From positions 2,361,001 to 2,425,000 of the forward strand of contig NZ_JAUTAH010000001.1 in the NCBI RefSeq assembly GCF_030818545.1: DNA of 64,000 bases. The letters are read 5' to 3'. The DNA comes from Brevundimonas sp. SORGH_AS_0993. Its GTDB lineage: Bacteria > Pseudomonadota > Alphaproteobacteria > Caulobacterales > Caulobacteraceae. The notes under the pieces are model-generated. The model saw only the letters and a list, made by a program, of their open reading frames with translations. It was not told the DNA's origin and searched no databases. Shown here one piece after another: positions 2,415-61,220 of this stretch. Each line of letters begins with the position of its first letter. Positions within the stretch are counted from its first letter, which is position 1. A program made the position numbers and the translations under genes.

Positions 2415-2866
2415 CAGTCGTCTCCCACGCGGATGACGGCCGAGCGTTCGATGACGGCGGGCGGGCGGGGGATCACCTCGCCCAGCAGCATCAGCGGGTG
2501 GCGGCTGGCGTCATAGATCACCACCAGCCGCAGCCTGCCTGCGTCCTCGACCACGCGGACACGGGTGTTGGCGGCGTCAAGCGGCAGGCCCTTAACGGCC
2601 TCGGCGACTTCGGCGCGGGCCAGACGCTCCCGCTCGACCGCGTCCAGTCCCCCGACCGCCGCCCGCGCCCCCTCGGACGCCAGGGACTGAACCGACTGGG
2701 CCATCAGGAACCAGCCGCCATAGACGACGATGCCGATCAGCAGCGCCACCAGAATGGGCCCCACCAGGGCGAACTCCACGGCCGCAGCGCCCTCGCGCGG
2801 GGGCGGAGAGGGTCGAACCTCGTGGCGCCGGGGGCGCGGCGAACGAGAGAAGGGGCGGCGCACCAT
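2414..2866 (-). CDS. TadE-like pilus assembly protein
   Basis: A 150-residue protein with the TadE signature: a basic N-terminus, then EGAAAVEFALVGPILVALL, where the Glu in the AxVEFALV motif opens a single transmembrane helix near residues 25-50. The rest is a small soluble domain. The ATG at 2866 is preferred over the longer reading frame because the pilin-like N-terminus then has normal length. It is followed directly by the TadG-like gene with a one-base overlap. TadE-type minor pseudopilins act in the Flp/Tad pilus. A poor CtrA-like element (TTAA-N7-TTGC, 2912-2926) lies about 46 bp upstream, which is too weak to call. Confidence 0.8.
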   Translation of the reverse strand: MVRRPFSRSPRPRRHEVRPSPPPREGAAAVEFALVGPILVALLIGIVVYGGWFLMAQSVQSLASEGARAAVGGLDAVERERLARAEVAEAVKGLPLDAANTRVRVVEDAGRLRLVVIYDASRHPLMLLGEVIPRPPAVIERSAVIRVGDD

Positions 2867-2956
2867 GATGCAACCTCGCAAACTACTCGCCAAGGTTGTA
2901 TATTTGCGGGGTTAAGAGTTCGTTGCCGTTGCAGGCTGCGCCGTCGCGGGCGGCGC

Positions 2957-3583
2957 CTAGACGCCGACGACCTTCAGTTTGGGGCGTTTGGTCTTGGCGG
3001 GACGGTCGGCCTTCTTGGCGGCCTTTTCGGCCTTCTTGATCTCTTTCTCGGCCAGTTTCAGCGCCTTCTTCTCGGCCTTGGCCTGGGCCTTGGCGGCGTC
3101 GGGCGCGGCGTCGGCGGCGGCGGCCAGCTCGGCCAACTGGGCCAGGAAGATCTCCCGCTGACCCTTGGGCAACAGGGCCAGGATACGCTTGTCGGCCGCC
3201 TCCACTCGGGGGCGGGCGGCTTCCAGCCGGGCGGCGCCCTCGGGTGACAGGCGCACGGCCTTGGCGCGAGCGTCCAGGGTCGAGCGTTCCCGCTCCAACA
3301 GCCCCTTGGCCGTCATGCGCGTGACCAGATCGGCGAGGGTCGAGCGGTCGATGCCGGTCATCCGCACCAGTTCGGTCTGGGTCAGGCCGGCCTTCAGCGA
3401 GGCGGCCTCCAGCACGGCGAACTGGCGTTGGGTCAGGCCGTCGGCGCCGCATTCCTCAGCGTAGATGTCCTGCGCCAGTTGAAGGGCGCGGTGCATCAGA
3501 TGGCTGGGCGAAGCGCCCAAGGGGCCGACGCGCCGCGCCGTCTTGCCGGGCTTGGGCCCGCCTTTTCCGTCCGTCTTCACCAT
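2957..3583 (-). CDS. MarR-family regulator with Lys/Ala-rich tail
   Basis: The protein has 208 residues. Residues about 25-150 form a MarR winged-helix domain: helix-turn-helix LTQTELVRMTGIDRSTLADLV and the wing STLDARAKAVRLSPEGAARL (the wing Asp-x-Arg is present). The DNA-binding core is usual in length, but about 60 C-terminal residues are almost only Lys, Ala, Glu and Asp (EKKALKLAEKEIKKAEKAAK) and end in a basic PAKTKRPKLKV stretch. This tail resembles the histone-like tails seen on some alphaproteobacterial DNA-binding proteins. It may add non-specific DNA affinity, which is inference. The gene is upstream of tadE/tadG on the same strand with a 90-bp gap. Its regulon cannot be told from sequence. 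Confidence 0.85.
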   Translation of the reverse strand: MVKTDGKGGPKPGKTARRVGPLGASPSHLMHRALQLAQDIYAEECGADGLTQRQFAVLEAASLKAGLTQTELVRMTGIDRSTLADLVTRMTAKGLLERERSTLDARAKAVRLSPEGAARLEAARPRVEAADKRILALLPKGQREIFLAQLAELAAAADAAPDAAKAQAKAEKKALKLAEKEIKKAEKAAKKADRPAKTKRPKLKVVGV

Positions 3584-45381: not shown

Positions 45382-46176
45382 TCAGGGCCGGTCGATCGAC
45401 AGGCAATGCCGATGGGCGTCCAGAGCCATGACGATATCCGCTCTCTGCGGCATTTCCGCCAATATGTGACGTGTCACGCGCTCGTAATGGCTGATGAACC
45501 GGCCGACTTCGGCTGCGGTCATGATCGCGTCGCCGGGCGCGCCGCTGTGGCGCAACGCCTCTTCCTGTTCGAGCCGCCAGTCGTACACGACGTTCCAGCC
45601 GGGTGCGGCGAGGAGGACGAGGAGGTCGATCCGCTCGAACAGGGCGCGGTAAGGCCCGGCCAGCATGGCGTTTACATACCGTCGCCATACCCCGTCGCGG
45701 TCCTCTTGCCGCTCCAGCGTATTGACCGGCTGGACCAGGGCCTCGTCGTCCTGCGGCCGCGCGCCGACGCACCATCCCTCGAACAGCAAGACGCCGGCGT
45801 TCGCCGGCGCCGTCGGCCATGACGATTCCGGCCGCCGGTCGTCGGTCGCCTTGTCGAAGCGGGGCAGATGAACCGTGGCGCCGCGATCCAGCGCGGCCAT
45901 CACGGACAGGCCCAGGTCGATGTCGTGGGTGCCCGGCGCCCCGCGTGTGCGCAGCAGCGGATGGACATCCCGGGCCAGTCGCTCGCGTTCCGCCCGGGTG
46001 AGGTAGAGATCGTCGAGCGAGAGCGTGGCGGCCCGGTCCAGACGCTGGGCGAGGCGGGCCGCCAGCGTCGATTTTCCGCTGCCCTGCGCGCCGCAAATTC
46101 CCACCACCAGCGGACGGTCGGGGCGCTGCTGCGCCGCCGCCTGGATCGCGGCGATCAAACGGTCGTCAGGCGACAT
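45382..46176 (-). CDS. Glycerate kinase (GLYK-type P-loop kinase)
   Basis: A 264-residue P-loop NTPase of the plant-GLYK/YggC group, which phosphorylates D-glycerate at C3. It has the Walker A VVGICGAQGSGKSTLAARL, the pocket stretch LSLDDLYLTRAERERLA, the RGAPGTHDIDLGL motif and VLLFEGWCVGARP. The start ATG 46176 lies within the end of the upstream reductase gene (11-bp overlap). It is the last gene of the minus-strand sugar operon. Together with the reductase it would move hydroxypyruvate-derived glycerate into 3-phosphoglycerate; the source of glycerate is not obvious from the cluster. Confidence 0.85.
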   Translation of the reverse strand: MSPDDRLIAAIQAAAQQRPDRPLVVGICGAQGSGKSTLAARLAQRLDRAATLSLDDLYLTRAERERLARDVHPLLRTRGAPGTHDIDLGLSVMAALDRGATVHLPRFDKATDDRRPESSWPTAPANAGVLLFEGWCVGARPQDDEALVQPVNTLERQEDRDGVWRRYVNAMLAGPYRALFERIDLLVLLAAPGWNVVYDWRLEQEEALRHSGAPGDAIMTAAEVGRFISHYERVTRHILAEMPQRADIVMALDAHRHCLSIDRP

Positions 46177-47140
46177 GGTTGGGCAGCGCCTTGCCGGACA
46201 GGAAGGCGTCGATATTGGCGATGGCCTGCATTCCCATCGCAACCCGCGCCTCGATCGTGGCGCTGCCCAGATGCGGCAGCAGGACCGAGCGCGGATGGGC
46301 AAGCAATCCGGGATGCACCGCCGGCTCTTCCGCATAGACATCCAGGGCGGCAGCCCCGATCCACCCGGCGTCGAGCGCTTCCACGAGTGCGGCCTCGTCG
46401 ATCACCGACCCGCGCGCCGTGTTGACCAGCACCGCGTGGGGCTGCATCGCCCGCAGCAGGTTTCGGTCGATCATGTGGCGCGTCGCCGCGCCGCCGGGCG
46501 TATGCAGCGACACCACGTCGGCGTCGCGGACCAGATCGACGAGCGTGTCGGCCGGTTCCGCGGCCAGCCGCGCCCGCACCGCCGGATCGACCGGCGAGCG
46601 ACTGACATAGCGGATCGTCATGCCCAGCCCCCGCGCCTTCGCGGCCGTGGCTTGCGCGATGCGGCCGAAGCCGACCAGCGCGAGGACGCGGCCGTGCAGT
46701 CCGTTTCCGATCAGGTGGGTGGGACGCCAGCCTGTCCAGGCTCCGGCGCGCACCTCGCGTTCGCCCTCGCCCGCGCGGCGCGCCGCCATCAGCATCAAGA
46801 GGATGGCCAGTTCCGCCGTCGCCTCGGTCAGGGCGTCGGGCGTGTTGGTGACGGCGATCCCGGCGGCGCGCGCCGCGACCAGGTCGATGTGGTCGACGCC
46901 GGCGCCGTAGTTGGCGATCAGCCGCACCCGATTGCCGGGCGCCTTCAGCAGCTCCGCGTCGATCCGGTCGGTGATCGTCGGCACCAGGATATCGGCGTTT
47001 CGCATGGCGTCGGCCAGTTCGTAGCGATCAAGCGGCGCATCGTCCGGGTTCAGCCGTGCGCCCAGCCGCTCGGCCAGCACGCCTTCGACCTTCGCCGGCA
47101 GCCGGCGCGTCACGCGGATGGAGGGATGCGCGGCGGTCAT
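46166..47140 (-). CDS. Glyoxylate/hydroxypyruvate reductase (D-2-hydroxyacid dehydrogenase)
   Basis: A 324-residue D-isomer-specific 2-hydroxyacid dehydrogenase of the GyaR kind. NAD-binding core VLALVGFGRIAQATAAKARG; catalytic Arg in VNTARGSVIDEAAL, Glu in YAEEPAVHPG, and His in VLLPHLGSATIEAR. The substrate would be glyoxylate or hydroxypyruvate. The ATG overlaps the stop of the aldo-keto reductase gene (ATGA), and the end overlaps the kinase start. The pairing with glycerate kinase favours a glycerate-producing role (inference). Confidence 0.88.
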   Translation of the reverse strand: MTAAHPSIRVTRRLPAKVEGVLAERLGARLNPDDAPLDRYELADAMRNADILVPTITDRIDAELLKAPGNRVRLIANYGAGVDHIDLVAARAAGIAVTNTPDALTEATAELAILLMLMAARRAGEGEREVRAGAWTGWRPTHLIGNGLHGRVLALVGFGRIAQATAAKARGLGMTIRYVSRSPVDPAVRARLAAEPADTLVDLVRDADVVSLHTPGGAATRHMIDRNLLRAMQPHAVLVNTARGSVIDEAALVEALDAGWIGAAALDVYAEEPAVHPGLLAHPRSVLLPHLGSATIEARVAMGMQAIANIDAFLSGKALPNHVA

Positions 47141-48186
47141 GCCCGAACCGCCTCGTCGCGCGTCGTCGGCACGGGGGCGTCGCTTCGCAGCAGGCCCTCC
47201 GCCACCAGCGCCTGCCAGAAGCCCTCGGGTATCGGGTGACGGTACAGGTCCAGCGTCTGGGCCAGCCTTCGCGGATCACCGATGCCGGGCAGGACGCTGG
47301 CGACGCAGGGATGAGCGAGCGGGAATTGCAGCGCGGCGGCCGCCAGCGGTACTTGCCAGTCGTCGGCAACGGCTTCGATCCGCCGCACCCGCGCGACGAC
47401 CGCGTCGGGCGCGGGGCCGTAATCGTAAAAGGGCGCGCCGCCCCCGCGCGTCCCGGTCGCCAGGATGCCGCTGTTATAGGGCGCGCCGGCGACGACCGAG
47501 ACCTGACGCTGCGCGCACAGCGGAAACAGTTCGTCGAGCGGCGTCTGTTCGAGCAGCGTGTATCGATTGGCGAGCAGCAGCACGTCGACCGGCGCGACGC
47601 GGATCGCGTCGAGGCAGACCTCGACTTCGTTCACGCCCAGTCCGAAGGCGGCTATCGCTCCCTGGTCGCGCAACGACTCCAGCGCGGCGAACCCGCCGCC
47701 CGTCGTCAGTTCGGCCCAGTGGCGATCGTGCGCGTCGCCCAGCACCTTCCGGCCGATGTCGTGGACGAACACCATGTCGATCCGGTCCAGCCCGAGGCGG
47801 TGCAGGCTCGCTTCGAAGGCGCGCAGGATGCCGTCGCGGCTATAGTCGTACTCGACCCGGAACGGCATCGGCGAGAGAAAGCCGTCGCGCGCCTCCTGCG
47901 CTGTCGCCGAGGCATCGGGCGTCAGCAGGCGTCCGACCTTGGTGGACAGGACGACCCCACGATCCGCTTCCCGCAGCGCATCGCCGACGCGCCGTTCGCT
48001 CAGCCCCCGTCCGTAGAAGGGGGCGGTGTCGACGAAGCGAATTCCTGCCGCGATCGCATCGTCGATCGCGGCCCGTCCGGTGGCATCGTCGATGCGCCGG
48101 TTGAGGTTGCCAAGCGACGCCGCGCCGAAGCCCAGTTCGGTCAGCCGCAACTCTGTCTGCCCCAGCGGGCGGGTGGGAAGGGTCAT
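47137..48186 (-). CDS. Aldo-keto reductase, likely aldose 1-dehydrogenase (L-fucose-type)
   Basis: A 349-residue aldo-keto reductase resembling D-threo-aldose/L-fucose 1-dehydrogenases. Active-site tetrad: Asp in FVDTAPFYGRGLSE with the catalytic Tyr, Lys in VLSTKVGRLL and His in VFVHDIGRKV. These enzymes oxidise the pyranose at C1 to a lactone with NAD(P)+. ATG 48186 lies 14 bp after the FAH-type hydrolase gene. In an oxidative fucose pathway it would supply the lactone for the COG3618 lactonase upstream. Confidence 0.85.
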   Translation of the reverse strand: MTLPTRPLGQTELRLTELGFGAASLGNLNRRIDDATGRAAIDDAIAAGIRFVDTAPFYGRGLSERRVGDALREADRGVVLSTKVGRLLTPDASATAQEARDGFLSPMPFRVEYDYSRDGILRAFEASLHRLGLDRIDMVFVHDIGRKVLGDAHDRHWAELTTGGGFAALESLRDQGAIAAFGLGVNEVEVCLDAIRVAPVDVLLLANRYTLLEQTPLDELFPLCAQRQVSVVAGAPYNSGILATGTRGGGAPFYDYGPAPDAVVARVRRIEAVADDWQVPLAAAALQFPLAHPCVASVLPGIGDPRRLAQTLDLYRHPIPEGFWQALVAEGLLRSDAPVPTTRDEAVRA

Positions 48187-48200
48187 CGCGTCGGTCCCGT

Positions 48201-49055
48201 TCAGCCGTTCGCCGCCGCGACGAAGTCCTGGCGCTGCTCGCCCAGGCCGTCGATCCCCAGCGTAACCACATCGCCCGGCTTGAGATACCAGGGCTCCGGC
48301 TTCTGTCCCAGGCCGACGCCCGGCGGCGTGCCCGTCGTGATGATGTCGCCGGGCTCCAGCGCCATGAACTGCGAACAATAGGCGACGATCTCGGCGACCG
48401 GGAAGATCATGGTCGCGGTGCTGCCGGTCTGCATCCGCTGGCCGTTGACGTCGAGCCACATCGACAGCGCCTGCGGATCCCCGACCTCGTCGGCCGTGAC
48501 CAGCCACGGGCCGATGGGCCCAAAGGTCGGGAAGCCCTTGCCCTTGTCCCAGGTCGGTCCGCGTTCGGCCTGCCATTCGCGTTCCGACACGTCGTTGACG
48601 ACCAGATAGCCGGCGACGTGATCCAGCGCCCTGTCCACCGCGACGTCGTGCGCCGCCGCGCCGATGACGATGCCCAGTTCGACCTCCCAGTCGGTCTTCT
48701 TCGATCCGCGCGGAATGACGACCGGGTCGTTCGGACCCTGGATGCAATTCACCCATTTGTTGAACACGACCGGCTCCTCTGGGATCGGCAGGTTAGATTC
48801 GGCGGCGTGGTCGGCATAGTTCAGGCCGATCGCGATGAATTTGCGCGTGCCGGCGATTGGCGGGCCGTAGCGGACCCCCGCCTCGACCAGCGGCAGGTCG
48901 TCGGGGGAAAGCGCGGCCAGGCGACGCAGCCCTTGGGCCGAGATTGCGGCGGGGTCGATGTCGGCGACATGGCCGGACAGGTCGCGGATGCGGCCGGCGG
49001 CGTCGATCAGGCCAGGCTTCTCATGACCGGGCGCGCCGAAGCGGCAGAGTTTCAT
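48201..49055 (-). CDS. Fumarylacetoacetate hydrolase-family diketo-acid hydrolase
   Basis: A 284-residue FAH-family hydrolase of the FAHD1/diketo-deoxyfuconate type. Metal residues: EVELGIVIG (the E-x-E) and [11 protein letters not shown] (Asp), with [11 protein letters not shown] at the N-terminal side and [14 protein letters not shown] near the end. Expected role: hydrolytic cleavage of 2,4-diketo-3-deoxy-sugar acids to pyruvate plus a 2-hydroxy acid. ATG 49055 overlaps the LldD stop (ATGA). The longer reading frame upstream is a shadow of lldD. Confidence 0.88.
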
Positions 49056-50224
49056 GGTTGTTCCTTTGTCGGAAAAGGGTTGGAAACCTCGGCGAGGAGG
49101 CGGTGATCTATGGCGGAGACGGCGTTGACGCCGGTCAGCGTCATGACGACTTCCATTTCGCGCGCGAGAATGGAGAGCATGCGCGCCACCCCGTCTTCGC
49201 CTTCGGCGGCGAGCGCCCACAGCCACGCCCGGCCGAGCAGTACGCCCTTGGCTCCCAGCGCCAGAAGGCGGACGACGTCGAGGCCGGATCGGACGCCGGA
49301 ATCGGCCAGCACAGTCAGCCGATCGCCGACCGCCGCGGCGATGCGGGGCAGGGCGGCGGCGGTCGACATCGCGCCGTCGAGCTGTCGCCCGCCATGGTTC
49401 GACACGACGATCCCGTCCGCCCCGTAATCGGCGGCGGCGCGGGCGTCTTCGGGGTCGAGGACGCCCTTGATGACAAGCGGCCCGTCCCATTCGGCGCGCA
49501 GCCAGTCGAGGTCCTTCCAGCGAATGCCGGGATCGAAATTCGCTCCCAACCAGCCCATGTAGTCGTTCAATCCGCTGGCGGCGCCCAATACAGGCTCCAG
49601 ATTGCCGAGCCGGTGCGGACGCCCGTGCACGCCGACGTCCCAGGCCCAGCCGGGCTTGCCCATCGCCTGCATGAGGCGCTTTACCCCGGCCCCCGGCCCC
49701 GACATGCCGGAATGGGCGTCGCGGTAGCGGATGCCGGGCGTCGGCATGTCGACCGTGAAGACCAGCGCCTGCGCGCCCGCCTCTTTCGCCCGTGCGAGCA
49801 GGTCCCGCATGAAGCCGCGGTCACGGATGACATAGAGCTGGAACCACAACGGCCCGTCCGACGCCGCCGCGCGCAATTCCGTCATTCCGCAGATGCCGAC
49901 GGTCGACAGCGTGAAGGGCACGCCGTGCCTATGCGCGCCCCGCGCCGCCTGGGTTTCGCCGCGCCGACGGAACATGCCGGCGATGCCGACCGGCCCCAGG
50001 GCCACCGGCAGCGGCTGTTCGTGGCCGAACAGCGTCGTGCGGAGGTCGATGGACGCCACGTCCTGCAACACGCGCTGACGCAGCACCGTCGCGTGCAGGT
50101 CGTCGACGTTGCGGCGGCAGGTGATCTCCGAAAAGGCGCCGCCGTCGGCATAGTCGAACAGGAAACGCGGCAGCCGTCGGCGCGCGGCGATGCGGAAATC
50201 GTCCAGGGATGCGATGATCGTCAT
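49052..50224 (-). CDS. lldD: L-lactate dehydrogenase, FMN-type (LldD)
   Basis: A 390-residue FMN-dependent alpha-hydroxyacid dehydrogenase that follows E. coli LldD along its whole length: [68 protein letters not shown] (flavin Lys) and [14 protein letters not shown] (catalytic His). It oxidises L-lactate to pyruvate at the inner membrane and feeds quinones. In this operon it would consume the L-lactate released from a 6-deoxysugar. A pentose would give glycolate instead, and the closeness to LldD argues for lactate. Confidence 0.93.
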
Positions 50225-50232
50225 CGGGCGGC

Positions 50233-50964
50233 TCAGGCCATGGTCCAGCCGCCGTCGATCGCCATCAGGCTACCGGTGACATAGCCGCTTTCGTCGGATG
50301 CGAGATACAGGGCCAGGGCGGCGATCTCCTCGGCGGAGCCGATCCGGCCCATCGGCTGACGCGAGATGAAGGCGGCGCGGGCGGCCTCGGCGTCGCCGGT
50401 CGCGGCGAGCCGCTGGTCCAGCGACGGCGACTGCACGGTGCCGGGGCAGATCGCGTTGCAGCGGATGCCCTGTCCCACATAGTCCACCGCGACCGATCGC
50501 GTCAGGCCGCCCAGCGCGCCCTTGGAAACGCAATAGGCGAAGCGGTTGGGAACGCCGATCATCGTCCCCGCGACCGACGCGACATTGACGATCGATCCGC
50601 CGCCCGCGGCGATCATGCCGGGCAGGAAGGTGCGGATCATCCGCATGGCGGCGTCGACGTTCAGGTCGAACGACAGGCGATAGCCCCGCTCTCCGGTCGA
50701 GAGCAGGTCGCCGGCGTCGACATAGCCGGCGCAATTGACCAGCACGTCGATCGTCCCGATCTCCGCACCCAATGCGTCGACCGCCGCCGCGTCGAGCAGG
50801 TCGACGACCTTCGTTCGGCATCCCGCCAGCGTCGCCAGCGCCTCCGCCTGCACGTCCAGCGCGATCACCTCCGCGCCTTCGCGCAGGAACATATCCGCCG
50901 TCGCGCGGCCGATTCCCTGCGCCGCCCCGGTTACGAGGGCGCGCTTGCCCGCCAGTCTGTTCAT
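50233..50964 (-). CDS. SDR dehydrogenase, likely 2-keto-3-deoxy-sugar-acid 4-dehydrogenase
   Basis: A 243-residue classical SDR. Cofactor loop GAAQGIGRA, Asp-Val (ALDVQAEAL) suggesting NAD+, [13 protein letters not shown], catalytic Ser in NVASVAG and Tyr-x3-Lys in [12 protein letters not shown]. The C-terminus ([20 protein letters not shown]) is that of the 2-keto-3-deoxy-L-fuconate dehydrogenase kind. Start ATG 50964, overlapping the mutarotase stop (ATGA); the longer frame upstream is not supported. Expected reaction: oxidation at C4 to the 2,4-diketo acid, substrate of the FAH-type hydrolase. Confidence 0.88.
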
Positions 50965-51326
50965 ATCCTGTCCTTGTTCGATAGATGATCGCTCTGCCGG
51001 AAGACGCGATGCGCCACCGGCCAGGGTTCGCCATCGGCGAATGGGGCCCGTTGAAGCTCGGCCATGCGGGCCTGCCATGCGATGAGTTCGGGATGCTCGC
51101 GCTCGATCCGCTGCAGGCCCTCCGCATCGAAATCCTCGGCCAGCGTCAGGATCATGACCAAGCGGTGGCCGGCCCGGAATATCTCCATCTCGACGATCCC
51201 GTGACGATGCTGCGCCTCCACGACCGCGACCGGCGTGCGGCCCGCGCGGTGCGCCTCGTCATAGGCCGCGATCGCCGCGGCGTCGGTGGCGAGGTCCATG
51301 ATGCGGACCACCCGTTGCGTTCGCAT
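50961..51326 (-). CDS. L-rhamnose/L-fucose mutarotase-family protein
   Basis: A 121-residue RhaM/DUF718-type mutarotase: VVRIMDLATDAAAIAAYDEA, MEIFRAGHRLVMILTLAEDF and EPWPVAHRVFRQSDHL, with the conserved His/Tyr residues of that fold. It interconverts sugar anomers, here probably of the 6-deoxyhexose entering the dehydrogenase. It begins 3 bp after the lactonase stop and overlaps the SDR start by 4 bp. Confidence 0.88.
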   Translation of the reverse strand: MRTQRVVRIMDLATDAAAIAAYDEAHRAGRTPVAVVEAQHRHGIVEMEIFRAGHRLVMILTLAEDFDAEGLQRIEREHPELIAWQARMAELQRAPFADGEPWPVAHRVFRQSDHLSNKDRI

Positions 51327-51329
51327 CGC

Positions 51330-52157
51330 TCAGTCCTTCATGCCGTAGAATGCGGCCGCCGCGCCGCGAAAGAGGCGATCCCGAGCGGCGCCGTGCAGGC
51401 CGGCAAGCCGGTCTGCGTCCGCCATCCATTGCGTGAAATCGTCCCCCGACAGACGCAGCACCGGCCAGTCGCTGCCCCACATCAACCGATCGCCGAAGCA
51501 GGCGAGCAGATGGTCGACATAAGGGCGCAACGGGTCCGCCGGAGCGCCGGCCGGCTGTTCGGTGCGCAGCCCCGACAGCTTGCACCATGCGCCGCGATCC
51601 GCGAGGGCGGCGATCTGCGCCCGCCACGGATCGACCAGGCCCTGGGCGATGAAGGGTTTCGCCGCATGGTCGATCACGACCGGAAGATCCGGCCAGCGAT
51701 CCATGAATCTGGCCAGCATCGGCAGATGCCGGGGCTGCGCGAGCGCATCGAAGCGCAGGCCATGTCGCCGCATCGCCTCGATCGCAGGCACCAGCGCCGG
51801 GTCGAGCAGCCAGTCGGTGTCGGCGATGGACTGCAGCATCGGTCGCAACCCGCGCAGTTTGGGCGCGGCCGCGAGCGTGGCGATCCTGTCCGGCGCCTGC
51901 GGCGACGCGAGATCGACCCATCCGACGACGGCGCCGACGACAGGGCTCGTCTCCGCCACGGCCAGCATCCAGTCGGTGTCGGCGTCGGTCGGCTGCGACT
52001 GGACCAGAACGCCGGCGGCCAGCCGGACGTCGCCAGCGGCGGCGATCAGGTCGTCCATGGCGAAATCACGGTGGATCGACGGTTCCGCAACGGTCGGCCA
52101 CTGGTGCCCAGGCGTATCGAGCGCCCATAGGTGATGGTGCGCGTCGATCACCTGCAT
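51330..52157 (-). CDS. COG3618 amidohydrolase, likely L-fucono-lactonase
   Basis: A 275-residue TIM-barrel amidohydrolase 2. It opens with the metal motif MQVIDAHHHLWALD, then GAVVGWVDLASPQAP, a mid His region LPVVIDHAAKPFI and MWGSDWPVLRL (metal Asp). The COG3618 group holds the sugar lactonases of L-fucose and related sugars. Start ATG 52157, 4 bp after the GntR gene stop. Expected role: opening of the 1,5-lactone to the aldonate. Confidence 0.88.
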   Translation of the reverse strand: MQVIDAHHHLWALDTPGHQWPTVAEPSIHRDFAMDDLIAAAGDVRLAAGVLVQSQPTDADTDWMLAVAETSPVVGAVVGWVDLASPQAPDRIATLAAAPKLRGLRPMLQSIADTDWLLDPALVPAIEAMRRHGLRFDALAQPRHLPMLARFMDRWPDLPVVIDHAAKPFIAQGLVDPWRAQIAALADRGAWCKLSGLRTEQPAGAPADPLRPYVDHLLACFGDRLMWGSDWPVLRLSGDDFTQWMADADRLAGLHGAARDRLFRGAAAAFYGMKD

Positions 52158-52161
52158 GGCG

Positions 52162-52884
52162 TCACGCCATGCCGAGAATCCGTTGCAGGGCCTGCTGGAA
52201 ATGGACGGCGAGCGCCGCTTCCGCCGCGTCCGCATCGCGGTTCGCGCACGCTTCCAGAATGTCGAGATGCTCGCGGAGCGTCCGCAGCGCCAAGGGTCGC
52301 GTCACCAGCCGATCGAGCCGCACGAGCGTCACATAGTTCTTCAGCCGCCGCGCGGTCATTTCGATCAGCGGGTTGCGCAAGGACGAGATCAGCGCGCCAT
52401 GCAACTGCTCCTCCAGCAATCCCAGCCGATCCTCCTCGGCCGGCCCCAGGTCGTGACGTTCCAGATCGGCGATCAGGCTGCGATGGGCCGCGATCATTTC
52501 CGCGATCTCCGCCGCATCGCCCCGCTCGGCGAAGGTCCGCGCGCCCGCCCGTTCGATCAGCGAGCGAAACTGGTAGGTCGACCGCGACAGTTCCAGATCC
52601 GCCTTGACGAACTGGATGCAGGATCGGGCATGGATCATGACCAGCCCTTCCGTCTCCAGCGTTCGCAACGCATCGCGCAACGGCTGGATGGTGAGGCCGA
52701 GCAATCGCATCAGCTCGTTCTGCGACAATTCGGCGCCGACCGGGATGGTCCTGTCGAACAGCCCTTGAAGGATCGCACGATAGGCCTTTTCGGCCAGCAG
52801 CGGCCCCGCGCCCCGCTCGCCGGCGGATTTCTCGCCGCCAGGGGGATCGCTCGCCGACGCTGTGCTGATTTTCGAACGGGGCAT
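52162..52884 (-). CDS. GntR (FadR-type) transcriptional regulator
   Basis: The 240-residue regulator has a GntR winged helix (AILQGLFDRTIPVGAELSQN; LGLTIQPLRDALRTLETEG) and a C-terminal FCD domain (about 110-230) with the metal-binding His pattern seen in LERHDLGPAEEDRLGLLEEQ and SLRNPLIEMTARR. It is the only regulator in the island and is the likely switch of the sugar genes, probably by release on binding a sugar-acid intermediate. An upstream in-frame ATG at 52908 is possible. Inverted repeats upstream (52915-52951) and in the enolase/receptor gap are candidate operators. Confidence 0.9.
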   Translation of the reverse strand: MPRSKISTASASDPPGGEKSAGERGAGPLLAEKAYRAILQGLFDRTIPVGAELSQNELMRLLGLTIQPLRDALRTLETEGLVMIHARSCIQFVKADLELSRSTYQFRSLIERAGARTFAERGDAAEIAEMIAAHRSLIADLERHDLGPAEEDRLGLLEEQLHGALISSLRNPLIEMTARRLKNYVTLVRLDRLVTRPLALRTLREHLDILEACANRDADAAEAALAVHFQQALQRILGMA

Positions 52885-52914
52885 AGTCAACCGAAATGGC
52901 CTTATCACCAGGAT

Positions 52915-52956: not shown

Positions 52957-54222
52957 TCATCGCACCGACCGGATCGGCAGCACGAGACACGCGCCGGCCA
53001 GCACGAACGCCCCCGCGATGACGAACAGCAGCGGATAATCGTTGCCGGTCGCGCCCAACAGCGTCGCGGCGAGCACCGGGCTGATGATCTGCGGAACATT
53101 GACCGCAGTAGTCAGGATGCCGAGATCCTTGCCGGTGTCGTCGTCGCCTTCGCTGGCCGGCAGCACCTGCGTCATCAAGGCCAGATCGACCGACATGAAG
53201 GCGCCGTAACCCAGTCCGATCAGCACGGCATAGGCGAACATGCCGTGGATGTTGGGCTGCACCAACGGGGCGAGAACCGCCAGCCCCATGATGATCCCGG
53301 CGACGAAGACCAGCGGCTTGCGGCGCTGCCAGCGATCCGACAGCCATCCGGAGGCGACGCCCGAGATGACCAGCGCCACGAACGTCACCGACGACAAGCG
53401 CGCGATGGTGGCGTTCGCGTCGCTCTGGCTGAACCCGATGTGGTCCTGAAGGATGTAGAGCAGATAGGTGACGATCGCCTGATAGCCCATGTAGATCGTG
53501 AACCGGCCAAGGAAGGCCCAGGCGAAATCGGGATGCTTGCGCGGGTCGATCCAGAAGGAGCGCAGGAAGGCGCCGAGGTGGAACGACGAGGCCGGCGGCA
53601 GCGCCTTGCGCGGTTCCGGGTTCAGCGCCACGAAGAACAGGCAGGCGAGGATGATCGCGCCGCCCAAAAGACCGTAGGCGAGCCGCAGATCATGGGCGAG
53701 CAGCCCGCCGTAGATGGCGCCGGCGGAAATCCCGGCCGTCATCGCCGCGCCGACCACGCCCGACACGAAGCCGCGCTCCTCCGCCACAAACCGGTCGGCG
53801 ATGATGGTGGTGATCGCCGGCTGCATGGAATTGAGGCTGATCGTCGCCACGACCCACAGGGCCGTCACCGCGACGATGCCCGATCCGTAAGGAACCAGGA
53901 TGATGGCGCAGCCGCCGATCACGGCGCCGATGACGATCCACGGCGTGCGCCGACCGAACCGACTCCGCGTCCGGTCCGAGAAGGCGCCGGCCAAGGGTGT
54001 CGCCAGCGTGCTGAAGACGGAGGTGATGGCGAACACCACGCCGAGCGTCTTGGCCTTGGTGTCGGGCGAGATATCCTGGATCTGGTTAGGCAGAAGCACG
54101 CCCAGAACGGCGGCGTAGAGGGTCAGCAGAACGAAGAAGACGACGCCCAACGACACGATCAGCCGCCAGTCGCGCCGGCCGGCCGCTGTCTTTTGCGGCG
54201 CGAGTGATTTGAGCCCGCTCAT
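52957..54222 (-). CDS. MFS sugar-acid/sugar transporter
   Basis: A 421-residue major-facilitator permease with about twelve helices (first at LIVSLGVVFFVLLTLYAAVLG, about 20-42). The helix 2-3 loop motif GAFSDRTRSRFGRRTPWIVIG is present, as in the GPH/cation-sugar-symporter-like group, and a second copy, GWLSDRWQRRKPLVFVAG, opens the second half. The substrate is inferred from context, probably the sugar or sugar acid degraded here. The ATG overlaps the enolase-family stop (ATGA). The residues joined upstream in the long frame are an enolase shadow. Confidence 0.85.
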   Translation of the reverse strand: MSGLKSLAPQKTAAGRRDWRLIVSLGVVFFVLLTLYAAVLGVLLPNQIQDISPDTKAKTLGVVFAITSVFSTLATPLAGAFSDRTRSRFGRRTPWIVIGAVIGGCAIILVPYGSGIVAVTALWVVATISLNSMQPAITTIIADRFVAEERGFVSGVVGAAMTAGISAGAIYGGLLAHDLRLAYGLLGGAIILACLFFVALNPEPRKALPPASSFHLGAFLRSFWIDPRKHPDFAWAFLGRFTIYMGYQAIVTYLLYILQDHIGFSQSDANATIARLSSVTFVALVISGVASGWLSDRWQRRKPLVFVAGIIMGLAVLAPLVQPNIHGMFAYAVLIGLGYGAFMSVDLALMTQVLPASEGDDDTGKDLGILTTAVNVPQIISPVLAATLLGATGNDYPLLFVIAGAFVLAGACLVLPIRSVR

Positions 54223-55313
54223 GCCGCCACCGCCTCGGACAGGCGGCGGCAGTCCTCCTGCGCCGTCCGGCTCAACCGCAGTCCGTGTCCCGGCGCGTCG
54301 CTGCCGAAGATCATGCCGTCGCGGATCGGGAACGTCTCCTCCACCAGATGGTCGAAGTTCTGGAAACTGTATTCCAGCCATCGCACGCCCGGCAGCGCCA
54401 GCGCCATGTTGACGCCGATCTCCAGGAAGCTGTTGCCCAAAGTCACCTCGATATTGTGCTCGCTGGCGAGCCAGCCCGCGCGCATGACGTCGCCGATCTG
54501 CGCGTGGACGTTCAGCATGTCGCATGCCTGCTGTTCGAGCAGTCGCCGCTTGCCCGACAGGTCGAGATATTCGCCGGCGTTGACCCGGGTGATGCCCGTC
54601 TGCCGGATCAGCTTCAGCCCGGCGACATCGTCGCGGGTGACGGGATCCTCGACCCAGTAGATGCGGTGCCCCGCGCGCTCGAATGTCTGCAGCGCGTCGA
54701 TCGCCTGTCCGACGGTCCACGCCTCGTTGGGATCGACCATCACCGGGCGATCCTGGCCCACCGCCTTGCGCAACAGGTTCAATCGGTGAACGTCGCGATC
54801 GAGGTCGGGATGGCCGACCTTGATCTTGAAGCCGCGATAGCCGGCTTCCGCAGCGTTGCCGAACAGTTCGACAAAGGCGTGATCCGACAGGTGGAAGTCC
54901 AGCCCGCTCGCATAGACGGGGACGCTGGAGCGTTCGGCGCCCAGCATCCGCCACAGCGGCAGGCCCTGCTGCTGGGCGAACAGATCCCAGACCGCCTGCT
55001 GGATGGCCTCCTCGAACGGCAGCGACATGCGGCGCACATTGCCGCCGCGCGATCTCCGCACCGCGAGCGCGAGCGCCGCCGGCTCCTGACCGTCGAGGGC
55101 GGGCCATGCCTGTTCGAGGAAGATCCGCTCGATCTCCCGCTCGTCGGGAAGCACGTTGAACAAGGACTGCGCGAAGCCGAGGCCGACATGTCCCGCCGAG
55201 TCGATCAGCTCGATCGCGGCCACATGGATTTCGGTCGTATGCACCTGCGAGTCGCCGACCGGCCGATCGCGAGGATAATGAAAACGGGCGATCCGATATG
55301 CCGTTATCCTCAT
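54219..55313 (-). CDS. Enolase-superfamily sugar-acid dehydratase (mandelate racemase-like)
   Basis: A 364-residue protein of the mandelate racemase-like group. The N-terminal cap runs to about 120. In the barrel: the K-x-K motif FKIKVGHPDLDRD, metal ligands in MVDPNEAW (Asp), YWVEDPV (Glu) and VNAGEYLDL (Glu), and Asp in CDMLNVHAQIGDV. At the place of the general-base His (SH-x3-E of mandelate racemase) this protein reads GNSFLEIG, so Asn stands there. It is shorter than L-fuconate dehydratase FucD (about 440). Expected role: dehydration of the aldonate to the 2-keto-3-deoxy acid. ATG 55313 is chosen over 55328. First gene of the minus-strand operon. Confidence 0.82.
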   Translation of the reverse strand: MRITAYRIARFHYPRDRPVGDSQVHTTEIHVAAIELIDSAGHVGLGFAQSLFNVLPDEREIERIFLEQAWPALDGQEPAALALAVRRSRGGNVRRMSLPFEEAIQQAVWDLFAQQQGLPLWRMLGAERSSVPVYASGLDFHLSDHAFVELFGNAAEAGYRGFKIKVGHPDLDRDVHRLNLLRKAVGQDRPVMVDPNEAWTVGQAIDALQTFERAGHRIYWVEDPVTRDDVAGLKLIRQTGITRVNAGEYLDLSGKRRLLEQQACDMLNVHAQIGDVMRAGWLASEHNIEVTLGNSFLEIGVNMALALPGVRWLEYSFQNFDHLVEETFPIRDGMIFGSDAPGHGLRLSRTAQEDCRRLSEAVAA

Positions 55314-55631: not shown

Positions 55632-58430
55632 ATGAAGACCACCAGGATCATGTGCCTGTGCACCGTGGGTGCGATATCTCTCATGCAGGCGTCGATGGCC
55701 TGCGCGCAGGCTGACGCCGCGACGACTACGCCGCCGCCCGCCTCGCCGAGCACCGATGCCACACAGGCCGTCAATGTCGGGGATATCGTCGTCACCGGCT
55801 ACCGCGCCTCTGCGGCGCGCGCGGTGTCGGTCAAGCGCGAGGCCGCGTCCGTCGTCGAGGCCGTCACCAGCCAGGATCTGGGCCGCTTCAGCGACGTCAA
55901 CATCGCCGATGTCTTGCAGCGCGTGCCGGGCGTTCAAATTGAACGCAACGACAGCGGCACCGCGGGCGATCGCGCATCCATTCGCGGCCTCGGCCCGGGC
56001 TACACGCAAGTCACGATCAACGGCCGCGTTCCGCTGACCGGCGGCAACGAGGGCATCAACTCCCTGCGCCAGGTCAATCTCGACGTGCTGCCGACCGAGG
56101 TCATCTCGGGCATGCTGGTGTACAAGACGCCGACCGCCGACCTGGTCGAAAGCGGCATCGCCGGCGAGATCGACGTCCAGACGCTGAAGCCGCTCGACTA
56201 TCGCGCTCCCGGCGGCGGCGCGTCGTTCGGCAGCCTGACCGTCCGCGCCGACTATGACGACCAGACGGAGAACTTCATCCCGCGGATCAGCGGCGTCATT
56301 GGCGCCAAGTTGCTGGACGAAACGCTGGGCGTCTATCTCGCCGGCCTATGGTCTCGCGGCGACACCTCCAGTTCGGAACTGTTCTCGCGCTTCGCCACGC
56401 GCGACCTGTCGTTCGACGACAACGCCGACGGCCGCGTCGACCGCGTGGAGCGCGGCGTGCTGGTGCCGTCGCGCATTACGGCCTCGAAAAACGACGGCGA
56501 GATCAACCGTCTGGCGTTCAGCAGCGGCCTTCAGTTCAAGCCGAACGACCGGTGGGAAATCAACGTCGAGGGCACCTATTCCAAGTATCTGAACCAGCAG
56601 TATCGCCCCACCAACGATCTCCAGTTCAACAGCGCCAACAGCGTCTATGACGGCGTTGCCCTCCCCGGCGGCTACACGGTCCGCGACGGGCGGCTTCTTG
56701 CGCTGGATACGTCGAAGCTGGTGTACGCCGGCGGCGTCGGTCCGGGCGTCACGCTGGATCCGCAGCCGCTGAAGCTGTTCAACGACCAGTATGCGACCAT
56801 CCTCGGCGGCAACGTCAAATATACCGGCGACCGCATCCGTGCGAGCGTCGACTATGGCTACTCCGAAGGCCGCTACGACCAGGATCTGCGGCTGTTCTTC
56901 GGCGGCACCAGCGCGCCGAACCGCAACGTCCAGTATGACGGTGTTCCGATGGTGCCGACGATCACGGGCCTGACCAATGTCGTCACCCCTCCGGGCGGCG
57001 TCTTCAACGGTTTCTTCGGACGTAAATACTTCAACCGTTCGCATGCCCATGCGCTTCGCGGCGACGTCGCCTACGATCTGACGCCGGATGTCGTGCTGAA
57101 GGGCGGCGTGCGATACCAGGACACGACCATCCGGTTGCGCAGCACCTCGCTGTTCGTGCCGGCTCCGGATGCGTCCACCGGCTTCACCACCGCCATTTCG
57201 CAGCAGATGCCCAGTGTCGTCTTCAACGGCCAGGGCGCCGATTTCCTGTCGCGCTTCAACTTCGGAGTTCCGATCCCGTTCCTCGATTATCAGGCGGCGG
57301 CCAATCTGGTGCCTGCGCTGCGTGATGCGGCGATCGACAAGGAAGACGCATCCTTCGCCGTCACCGCGCATGAAAAGACGACCGCATTGTATGTGCAGGC
57401 CGACGGAAACGGCGCGTGGGGCAGCATGCCGGTCAAGGGCAACGTGGGTGTCCGGGCGGTTTACACCGATCTGACCTCGCAGTCGGCGCAGAGCACGACG
57501 GTCCTCAACGGACTGAACGCGACGCTTAGCCAGACGCTGACGCCGACCAGCGACACGAATCGCTACTGGGAATTCCTTCCTTCCGCCAACCTCGACCTCA
57601 ATCCCAGAGAACCGCTGCATGTCCGCCTGGGCGTGTCTCGCGTCATGTCGCGTCCGGAATACGAGGACACGGCGCCGCGCAACGCAGTCAGCTATTACGA
57701 TCCCAACGATCCGCGCGTCGATCCCAGCCAGCGCGGCTCCGCGACGCTCGGCAATACGAAGCTGAAGCCGCTGACGGCGTGGCAGTTCGATCTGACGCTG
57801 GAGTATTACACCAGCGGCGGCGGTGCGCTGTACCTCGGGGGCTTCCACAAGAAGGTCGACGACTTCATCCTGCGCACGGTGACGCTCAACACCACCATTC
57901 CGGCTCAGGGTGCGACCCGTCTGGACGTGACCCAGCCGGTCAACGCATCGGATGGCCGGGTCTATGGCGCCGAAGTGGGGTTGAACCAGCCGTTCAGCTT
58001 CCTGCCGGCGCCTTGGGACGGGTTCGGCATGGAGGCGAACTACACCTTTATCGACTCGAAGATCACCGTCGACAACGCAGCCTCGACCACCTCCTACGGC
58101 TTCCCGGGGGCGTCGAAGCACAACGCCAATGCGGTCGCCTATTACGAGAAGGGACCGTTCGCGGCCCGCGTCGCCTACGCCTATCGGTCGAGCTACTTCC
58201 AGGCGCTCGGCGGGGGCAACGATCGCGCCGCGCAGCCGACCTTCACCAAGGGATATGGCCAGCTCAACGCCAGCCTCTCCTATCGTCCGGTCGAAAATCT
58301 GGAGCTCAGCATCACGGGCACCAATCTCACCCGTGCGGATCGTCGCGATTACATCGTCGATCCGGACATGTTCCGCTCGTTCATCCAGCGTAGCCGGACG
58401 ATCGCTTTCGCCGTCCGCGGCTTCTTCTGA
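55632..58430 (+). CDS. TonB-dependent receptor, probably for a sugar or oligosaccharide
   Basis: A 932-residue outer-membrane receptor. Signal peptide MKTTRIMCLCTVGAISLMQA to ACAQA, TonB box region VGDIVVTGYRAS, plug motifs ADVLQRVPGVQIERND and ASIRGLGPGYTQVTINGR, and a barrel ending TIAFAVRGFF with C-terminal Phe. It lacks the STN domain of the receptor at 41283. The layout is that of the carbohydrate-type receptors of Caulobacter and sphingomonads. Start ATG 55632, behind GGAGGGAATGA. It leads the plus-strand run to xylB and xylA. Confidence 0.9.
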   Translation: MKTTRIMCLCTVGAISLMQASMACAQADAATTTPPPASPSTDATQAVNVGDIVVTGYRASAARAVSVKREAASVVEAVTSQDLGRFSDVNIADVLQRVPGVQIERNDSGTAGDRASIRGLGPGYTQVTINGRVPLTGGNEGINSLRQVNLDVLPTEVISGMLVYKTPTADLVESGIAGEIDVQTLKPLDYRAPGGGASFGSLTVRADYDDQTENFIPRISGVIGAKLLDETLGVYLAGLWSRGDTSSSELFSRFATRDLSFDDNADGRVDRVERGVLVPSRITASKNDGEINRLAFSSGLQFKPNDRWEINVEGTYSKYLNQQYRPTNDLQFNSANSVYDGVALPGGYTVRDGRLLALDTSKLVYAGGVGPGVTLDPQPLKLFNDQYATILGGNVKYTGDRIRASVDYGYSEGRYDQDLRLFFGGTSAPNRNVQYDGVPMVPTITGLTNVVTPPGGVFNGFFGRKYFNRSHAHALRGDVAYDLTPDVVLKGGVRYQDTTIRLRSTSLFVPAPDASTGFTTAISQQMPSVVFNGQGADFLSRFNFGVPIPFLDYQAAANLVPALRDAAIDKEDASFAVTAHEKTTALYVQADGNGAWGSMPVKGNVGVRAVYTDLTSQSAQSTTVLNGLNATLSQTLTPTSDTNRYWEFLPSANLDLNPREPLHVRLGVSRVMSRPEYEDTAPRNAVSYYDPNDPRVDPSQRGSATLGNTKLKPLTAWQFDLTLEYYTSGGGALYLGGFHKKVDDFILRTVTLNTTIPAQGATRLDVTQPVNASDGRVYGAEVGLNQPFSFLPAPWDGFGMEANYTFIDSKITVDNAASTTSYGFPGASKHNANAVAYYEKGPFAARVAYAYRSSYFQALGGGNDRAAQPTFTKGYGQLNASLSYRPVENLELSITGTNLTRADRRDYIVDPDMFRSFIQRSRTIAFAVRGFF

Positions 58431-58446
58431 TCGATCTGATCCTGGC

Positions 58447-59889
58447 ATGTTCCTCGGCATCGATATCGGGACGTCTGGCGTCAAGGCCATCGTCATGGAT
58501 CCATCCGGGACTGTGCTGGGGGAGGGCGTGGGGGCGCTGACGGTTCAGCGCCCCCGGGCGTTCTGGTCCGAACAGGACCCGGACGCCTGGTGGCGCGCCA
58601 CCCATGAGGCGGTGCTGGCGATCGACCCGGCGCTGCGGCGGGGTGTCCGCGGCATCGGCCTCGCCGGGCAGATGCACGGCGCCACCCTGCTGGGGGCGGA
58701 CGACCGTCCGCTGCGTCCGGCCATCCTGTGGAACGACGGGCGCAGCGGGCCGCAATGCGCGGCGCTGGAAGCCCTGGCGCCGGATCTTGCGACGATCACC
58801 GGCAACCGGGCGATGCCGGGTTTCACCGCGCCGAAGCTGCTGTGGGTTCGTGACCATGAACCCGACATCTTCTCCGCCGTGCGGACCGTGCTGCTGCCGA
58901 AAGACTATGTCCGGCTGAGAATGACCGGCGAAAAGGCGTCCGATCTTTCCGACAGCGCGGGGACGTTGTGGCTGGACGTCGCCCGCCGGCGCTGGAGCGA
59001 GACGATCCTCGACGCCTGCGGATTGAACGAAGGCCACATGCCGCGTCTGTTCGAGGGAACGGGCGCGTCCGGGCGTCTGCGGGCCGAGGTCGCGAGCGCC
59101 TGGGGTCTGGAGTCCGTCGTGGTCGCGGCGGGGGGCGGCGACAACGCCGCCGGCGCGGTAGGCGTCGGTGTCGTGGGCGACGGCGATGCGTTGCTGTCGC
59201 TCGGCACCTCGGGCGTCATCTTCGTCGCCACCGATACGCTACGCGCCAATCCCTCGCGCGGCGTTCACGCCTTCTGTCACGCCTTGCCCGATCTGTGGCA
59301 CCAGATGTCGGTCCACTTGTCCGCGGCGTCCTGCATCGATTGGGTCGCACGCATCACCGGCGCGAGCGACGCGGCCGAGTTGTTCGCGCGCGCGGAAGCG
59401 GCCGGGCCGTGTTGCGGTCCGGAAATCTTTCTTCCCTATCTGTCCGGCGAGCGCACGCCGCACAACGATCCTTCGGTGCGCGGCGCGTTTCTCGGGCTCG
59501 ATCACGACACGGACGCCGGACGGTTGGCGCAGGCGGTGCTGGAAGGCGTCGCCTTCGCCCTGGCCGACGGACTGAAGGCCCTGACCGAGACGGGGACCCG
59601 GATCGAAGCGTTGCGGGTGATCGGCGGCGGCGCGCGATCTCTTTATTGGGGGCGGATCATCGCCGCCACGCTGGAGACGCCGCTCACCTATCTGCACGGC
59701 GGGGAGGTCGGTCCGGCCCTGGGCGCCGCGCGATTGGCGCAACTCGCCGTCGACGGGGGGGATCCGGCCGCGATCTGCACGGCGCCCCCTGTGCGTCACG
59801 TCATTGAACCGGACGCCGCACTGGTCCGCCGGTTGTCCGACAAGAAGCAGCAGTTCCAAAGCGCCTACGCGCCCGTTTCACAGTATTAG
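58447..59889 (+). CDS. xylB: Xylulokinase
   Basis: XylB phosphorylates D-xylulose to D-xylulose 5-phosphate. The 480-residue FGGY-family kinase starts [18 protein letters not shown] (ATP/phosphate 1 loop), has [13 protein letters not shown] and WNDGRSGPQ, the catalytic Asp in [14 protein letters not shown], the [15 protein letters not shown] pattern and [16 protein letters not shown]. Start ATG 58447, 16 bp after the receptor stop. It is followed by xylA at 17 bp. Confidence 0.94.
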
Positions 59890-59906
59890 AAAGGCCTCTG
59901 ACCGTC

Positions 59907-61220
59907 ATGACCACGACCTACTTCGGTGACGTTTCCCCCATCGTGTACAAGGGGCCGGAGAGCGACGACGACCTGGCCTATCGCTGGTACGACAAGGATC
60001 GCGTCGTCCTTGGCAAGACCATGGCCGAACATCTGCGTTTCGCGGTCTGCATGTGGCACAACTTCTGCTGGACGGGCAGCGACGTGTTCGGCGCGGGAAC
60101 CTTCCGTCGCCCCTGGGCGGCGAGCGGCGACGCCGTCGAGGCGGCCGCGGCGAAGCGGCAGGCGGCCTTCGACTTCGTCCGCAAGCTCGACGTTCCCTAT
60201 TACTGCTTTCACGACGTCGATGTTTCCGCGCCATTCGGGACGGTGGCCGAACACGCCCGCCATTTCGGCGAGGCGGTCGACCATCTGGAAGCGTTGCAGG
60301 CCGAGAGCGGCGTCAAGCTGCTTTGGGGCACGGCCAACCTCTTCTCCGACCCGCGATACGCCGCCGGGGCGGCGACCAATCCCGATCCGGAAGTCTTCGC
60401 CTGGGGGGCGATGCAGGTCCGCGCCGCGCTGGAGGCGACCCACCGGCTGGGCGGCGCGAACTATGTGCTGTGGGGCGGTCGCGAGGGCTATGAGACCCTG
60501 ACCAACACCGACATGAAGCGCGAACTGGACAATCTCGGGCGCTTCCTGAGCCTGGTCGTCGACCACAAGCACCGGATCGGCTTCTCCGGCACGATCCTGA
60601 TCGAGCCGAAGCCGTTCGAGCCGACGAAGCACCAATATGACTTCGACACCGCGACGGTGTACGGCTTCCTCAAGCGCTACGGCCTGGAAAACGAGGTTCG
60701 CGTCAACATCGAGGCGAACCACGCGACCCTGGCCAGCCACAGCTTCGAACACGAGATCGCCACCGCCGGGGCGCTGGGCGTCTTCGGCTCGATCGACGCC
60801 AACCGCGGCGATTATCAGAACGGCTGGGACACCGACCAATTCCCCAATTCGGTCGAGGAGATGACCCGCGCGATGCTCGAAATCCTCCGCGCGGGCGGCT
60901 TCTCCACCGGCGGGTTCAACTTCGACGCCAAGGTGCGCCGTCAGTCGGTCGATGCGGTCGACATGTTCCACGGCCACATCGGCGGGATCGACACCGTCGC
61001 CAGGGCGCTGCTGAACGCCGCCGCGATCATCGAGGACGGCCGCATCGATGCGTTCAAACGCGAACGCTACGCCGACTGGGACGGCGAACTCGGCCGCGCG
61101 ATCCACAGCGACGCGGCCAGCCTGGCCACGATCGCCGACCTGGCGATCGCCCGCGACCTGTCTCCGCAGCCGCGCTCCGGGCGGCAGGAATGGCTGGAGA
61201 ACCTTCTGAACAGGGTGTGA
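59907..61220 (+). CDS. xylA: Xylose isomerase
   Basis: XylA converts D-xylose to D-xylulose. The 437 residues match the long (group II) enzymes. Catalytic His102 in [10 protein letters not shown], the metal region [35 protein letters not shown] and [19 protein letters not shown] are all present. The start ATG follows AGAAAGG. Last gene of the plus-strand run. Most Caulobacteraceae use an oxidative (Weimberg) xylose route, so this isomerase pair is notable. Confidence 0.96.

Follow-up and report, generated by a model that had tools for sequence, protein, structure and literature searches.

The operon and its first gene

The window analysed here is a stretch of 64,000 nucleotides from Brevundimonas sp. 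SORGH_AS_0993. It carries a tight minus-strand operon, several junctions of which are ATGA overlaps, and the first gene of this operon encodes a protein of the enolase superfamily, hereafter called ENO. The genes of the locus are the following.

54219..55313, minus strand: ENO, enolase-superfamily protein of 364 aa, with K163/K165, D194/E222/E248, H270, N294 and E298
52957..54222, minus strand: MFS transporter, whose ATG overlaps the stop codon of ENO (ATGA)
52162..52908, minus strand: GntR/FCD regulator, start uncertain
51330..52157, minus strand: amidohydrolase, L-fucono-1,5-lactonase-like (NF052480, 138.9 bits, below the cut-off of 400)
50961..51326, minus strand: RhaM-type sugar mutarotase
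50233..50964, minus strand: SDR, best PDB matches 8XWK/8Y11
49052..50224, minus strand: LldD-like FMN-dependent L-lactate dehydrogenase, above the NCBIfam cut-offs
48201..49055, minus strand: FAH-family 2,4-diketo-3-deoxy-acid hydrolase (NF053535, 454.7 bits, just below the cut-off of 500)
47137..48186, minus strand: aldo-keto reductase (AKR), probable sugar 1-dehydrogenase
46166..47140, minus strand: D-2-hydroxyacid dehydrogenase (2HADH), glyoxylate/hydroxypyruvate reductase-like
45382..46176, minus strand: kinase, best PDB match D-glycerate 3-kinase GLYK (7XPC, E 2.9e-25)
55632..58430, plus strand: TonB-dependent receptor, divergently oriented

Translation of ENO starts at the ATG at 55313, in agreement with the start of its relatives; a plus-strand reading was rejected, an unrelated open frame alone being found there. 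The two structures that best match the SDR are those of L-2-keto-3-deoxyfuconate 4-dehydrogenase (PMC11199699), and the gene set of the operon as a whole is that of the non-phosphorylative L-fucose pathway (PMC11199699). Within this set, ENO is the only plausible dehydratase. The LldD-like enzyme could act on L-lactate or, possibly, on L-glycerate. Directly after the TonB-dependent receptor gene lies a D-xylose module on the plus strand (58429-61220 of the window), made up of a xylulokinase-like sugar kinase and a xylose isomerase.

An altered dyad that defines a subgroup

ENO matches the Pfam family MR_MLE_C (PF13378, 132 bits). Residue correspondences were established from a MAFFT alignment combined with the secondary structure of the AlphaFold model (pLDDT 89), using reference sequences of mandelate racemase (MR) and of X. 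campestris FucD that are identical, letter for letter, to the PDB chains. The model displays the capping domain and barrel of the enolase superfamily, with Asp, Glu and Glu ligands at the ends of strands beta-3, beta-4 and beta-5, and superimposes on superfamily members with Z scores of 34-49: 49.3 over 352 residues for 2OZ8, 38.6 for MR (the third-ranked structural entry, about 24% identical) and 36.2 for FucD. The K-x-K pair typical of the MR subgroup is present at the end of beta-2 (FKIKV), K163 and K165 aligning to K164 and K166 of MR and to K218 and K220 of FucD, and D194 (MVDPN), E222 (WVEDP) and E248 (NAGEY) align to the MR metal ligands D195, E221 and E247. In the motif TLGNSFLEIG, N294 aligns to H297 of MR and E298 to E301; the match of N294 with H351 of FucD at beta-7 was made by motif, as the FucD loop is longer there. 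The first-pass annotation had placed this gene correctly, the strand being minus, and its description of the protein stands: lysine pair and three metal ligands kept, Asn at the position of MR His297 by alignment with both MR and FucD, and a chain some 75 residues shorter than FucD (364 against 441 residues, that is 77).

What that annotation did not contain is the change in the partner residue. H270 of ENO aligns to D270 of MR and D324 of FucD, and L-rhamnonate and L-talarate dehydratases also have Asp at this position. In the model, H270 comes immediately after strand beta-6 (266-269) and N294 just past strand beta-7 (289-292). Both dyad positions are therefore altered jointly, from Asp-His to His-Asn. 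ENO thus has neither the Asp-His dyad that marks the MR subgroup at the ends of beta-6 and beta-7, nor the Asp324-His351 dyad of FucD, nor the Lys that the MLE subgroup carries at the end of beta-6, where His270 stands instead.

The same arrangement recurs in the relatives of ENO. In 80 genomic homologues that are 54-71% identical to it, from Sphingomonadales, Hyphomicrobiales, Rhodobacterales and Burkholderiales, K163, K165, D194, E222, E248, H270, N294 and E298 are invariant wherever covered (81 sequences, one of which does not cover all sites; N294 is covered in 80 of the 81). The eight residues are also found in Mll7089 of Mesorhizobium loti (PDB 2OZ8), which is 55% identical to ENO and is the sole PDB match of the group profile at E < 1e-40; in its numbering, K165, H270 and N294 correspond to K167, H273 and N297. 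Since Asn294 is invariant in the 80 covering sequences and present in 2OZ8, it is not a chance substitution; the Asn is a hallmark of the subgroup, which has exchanged the Asp-His dyad for a His-Asn pair. A 28-protein tree places the ENO group, with full support, in a clade separate from both FucD and MR; MR and rhamnonate dehydratase stand on long branches of uncertain placement. ENO is also not of the FucD family by sequence: it is only 23-24% identical to a family of about 440 residues and belongs to a separate, supported clade. A literature search yielded no functional report on Mll7089/2OZ8 or on the subgroup, only an algorithm paper pairing 2OZ8 with the enolase superfamily. ENO is neither a degenerate nor a misread enzyme but a member of a distinct, biochemically uncharacterised branch of the enolase superfamily, the Mll7089/2OZ8 group. 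The possibility allowed for in the first-pass annotation, that the Asn might be normal in a characterised subgroup, was borne out in part: it is normal in a subgroup whose structure, though not its function, has been solved.

Other departures from the MR dyad were seen in the genomes searched. A sphingomonad sister group (loci L086, L087 and L088; 1501-2544), 34-35% identical to ENO, keeps the K-x-K pair and the metal ligands, but both dyad positions are occupied by Gly and that of E298 by Asn; an AKR homologue lies beside each of these genes and a lactonase homologue beside that of L086. Enolase-superfamily genes near 2700-3465 in loci L057, L064 and L065 encode proteins with KxH at beta-2; Ser follows their strand beta-6, and at beta-7 there is a His nearby. 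Close homologues of ENO are present in only 2 of the 249 genomes of the family, its own and one other, and this sparse occurrence suggests horizontal spread of the cluster.

Reaction and substrate

I propose, with a probability of roughly 0.6, that ENO is an acid-sugar dehydratase that would convert L-fuconate and/or L-galactonate to the 2-keto-3-deoxy acid in a non-phosphorylative pathway of the L-fucose type. Of the earlier suggestion of an unusual class of dehydratase, the class itself has good support from the gene context and from an active site that is both distinctive and invariant; the mechanistic part is taken up below. The 2.99 Mb host genome contains three MR_MLE_C matches: ENO, enolase and an L-rhamnonate dehydratase (751 bits against a cut-off of 393) that lies at a separate locus with its own FAH and SDR (locus L081, 1471-2688; at 2.946 Mb of the genome). 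The latter FAH is 71% identical to that of the window, and a second LldD is encoded nearby (L109); the two SDRs share only 34% identity. L-Rhamnonate was rejected as the substrate of ENO, given this dedicated enzyme with its own FAH and SDR. Searches of the host genome detected no canonical FucD, no UxaA/GarD-type dehydratase and neither GH29 nor GH95. Three IlvD/EDD proteins are encoded in it, all outside the operon: an IlvD-like protein, Edd and a member of PRK13017.

To discriminate between the two candidate substrates, the neighbourhood of ENO was compared with 19 canonical FucD loci. Homologues of the window genes do occur there (SDR in 14, AKR in 9, lactonase in 8 and FAH in 6 of the 19). 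Conversely, homologues of LldD, 2HADH and the glycerate kinase are found in none of the 19, while they accompany ENO in 11/11, 10/11 and 8/11 sphingomonad clusters, respectively. L-Fuconate processed by these steps would give L-lactate, for which LldD alone would suffice. L-Galactonate could instead yield pyruvate and L-glycerate, and the latter could be converted to 3-phosphoglycerate by LldD, 2HADH and the kinase. The characterised L-KDF dehydrogenase accepts L-KDGal, with about one-fifth of its efficiency on L-KDF (PMC11199699). The linkage of LldD, 2HADH and glycerate kinase to ENO, and their absence from the FucD loci, suggest that L-galactonate is a co-substrate at the least.

A narrower form of the proposal would have ENO act on L-fuconate alone and regard the glycerate-type genes as passengers with no connection to it. 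The SDR is closest to L-KDF dehydrogenase, the host genome is devoid of FucD, and an alpha-L-fucosidase gene (GH29) near the relative cluster L010 as well as a GH141-like gene inside cluster L001 favour L-fucose. However, FucD is co-present in 26 of the 33 searched genomes that have the ENO type, so that ENO is not a simple substitute for FucD on L-fuconate and the two enzymes probably do not have identical jobs; the consistent linkage of 2HADH and glycerate kinase in sphingomonads likewise speaks against passengers, and restriction to L-fuconate appears rather doubtful. A general replacement of FucD by ENO had been suggested by the host genome and by Sphingomonadaceae, where FucD is found in 12 of 249 genomes and the 2 genomes with a close ENO homologue are among those without it; this idea was rejected on the basis of the same co-occurrence. 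A long beta-helix/GH141-like gene lies inside the operon of other sphingomonads (L001, 13087-15291; L002, 13878-16073) and is missing from that of the window.

A GntR homologue is found near ENO in 10 of 11 sphingomonad clusters, most of which also have an adjoining TBDT homologue, and in 66 of 70 loci outside this group. However, a KDFDH-like SDR lies within 10 kb of ENO at only 4 of these 70 loci (one of them, L043, also has AKR, FAH and mutarotase-like genes), and the non-sphingomonad loci that were read in detail contain GntR and ABC sugar-transporter-like genes. The substrate may therefore differ there, and transfer of the assignment to the whole group is unsafe.

How could a dehydratase operate with a His-Asn pair? 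In the mechanism I favour, Mg2+ bound to D194, E222 and E248 would stabilise the enediolate and K165 would be the base that abstracts the C2 proton, as K220 is the base in FucD. H270, moved to the beta-6 position, would be the acid assisting departure of the C3 hydroxyl, while N294, in the vacated beta-7 position, may hold H270 or the substrate as a hydrogen-bond partner. A catalytic residue at the end of beta-6 has a precedent in the MLE subgroup, whose second catalytic Lys, located there, acts opposite the KxK lysine.

The first-pass annotation had envisaged a single lysine for both steps: K165 would abstract the proton and protonate the leaving group in a syn-elimination, leaving H270 a structural role. 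The intact K-x-K pair and the lack of the MR-type His are in keeping with this scheme, and the related proteins of L086-L088, with Gly at both dyad positions, make activity without a dyad residue seem possible. However, H270 is invariant in all covering sequences and sits at the catalytic end of beta-6, and a structural role does not predict a specific His where MR, FucD and the L-talarate and L-rhamnonate dehydratases have Asp. With an invariant His at what is the superfamily's other catalytic position, the one-lysine scheme has become the less economical account and is unlikely. The possibility, raised at the same time, that alignment would bring another His into the active site was borne out in part, H270 aligning there.

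A racemase or epimerase, also considered in that annotation, would use K165 and H270, placed on opposite faces, for a 1,1-proton transfer and act upstream of another dehydratase. This is chemically possible: MR, which ranks third among the structural matches, uses a Lys/His pair on opposite faces, and the PRK13017-type IlvD/EDD enzyme encoded elsewhere in the genome could perform the dehydration. However, the operon contains no other dehydratase, its SDR and FAH require a 2-keto-3-deoxy acid and identity to MR is only about 24%, which makes this reading quite improbable. Least credible of all is a lactone- or cyclo-isomerase akin to galactarolactone or 3,6-anhydro-L-galactonate cycloisomerase: the latter (5XD9) is among the closest structures (Z 38.1) but only 23% identical, none of the operon genes was recognised as an anhydrosugar or agar gene, and the operon amidohydrolase already covers the lactone step.

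Returning to the dehydratase, a more specific proposal combines mechanism and pathway. With the dyad inverted to a beta-6 His and a beta-7 Asn, Lys and His would form an acid-base pair arranged as the two lysines are in MLE, and the sphingomonad ENO would dehydrate L-galactonate within a bacterial pathway for L-galactose that leads to pyruvate and L-glycerate, the latter salvaged via hydroxypyruvate and D-glycerate. Taken as a whole, this combination is tentative. The operon suggests that bacteria may possess a route for L-galactose; in 2019, bacterial L-galactose metabolism was described as unidentified, a UxaA/GarD-type L-galactonate dehydratase being mentioned as unpublished data only (PMC6336799).

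Comparison with known systems

How new reactions emerge on one fold, as acid/base residues shift around the barrel, is a question for which the enolase superfamily serves as a model. Here, the subgroup is widespread and has its His on a different strand, its crystal structure is available (2OZ8) and the operon is readable, all of which makes the mechanism directly testable; a family that so far goes by no more than 'mandelate racemase/muconate lactonizing enzyme' would thereby obtain a name of its own. The nearest known protein, Mll7089/2OZ8, deposited as a putative mandelate racemase, shares with ENO the fold, the K-x-K pair, the metal ligands, the beta-6 His and the beta-7 Asn. FucD of X. 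campestris (1YEY/2HXT) has the superfamily fold, K-x-K pair and metal ligands in common with ENO, and its loci share SDR, FAH, lactonase and AKR homologues with the operon; it differs in its low identity (23-24%), its 77 additional residues, the retention of Asp324-His351 and its separate clade. MR of P. putida has the same fold, K-x-K pair, metal ligands and Glu four residues past the beta-7 position, but Asp270-His297 in place of His270-Asn294. The L-talarate/galactarate dehydratases (2PP0; 2OG9) are among the best PDB sequence matches and provide the best NCBIfam match (NF047820), yet ENO, at 141.9 bits, is far below the curated cut-off of 500, and these enzymes possess the Asp-His pair. 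Finally, the MLE subgroup (muconate cycloisomerase, dipeptide epimerases) resembles ENO in that its beta-6 ends in a basic residue, Lys in that subgroup and His in ENO.
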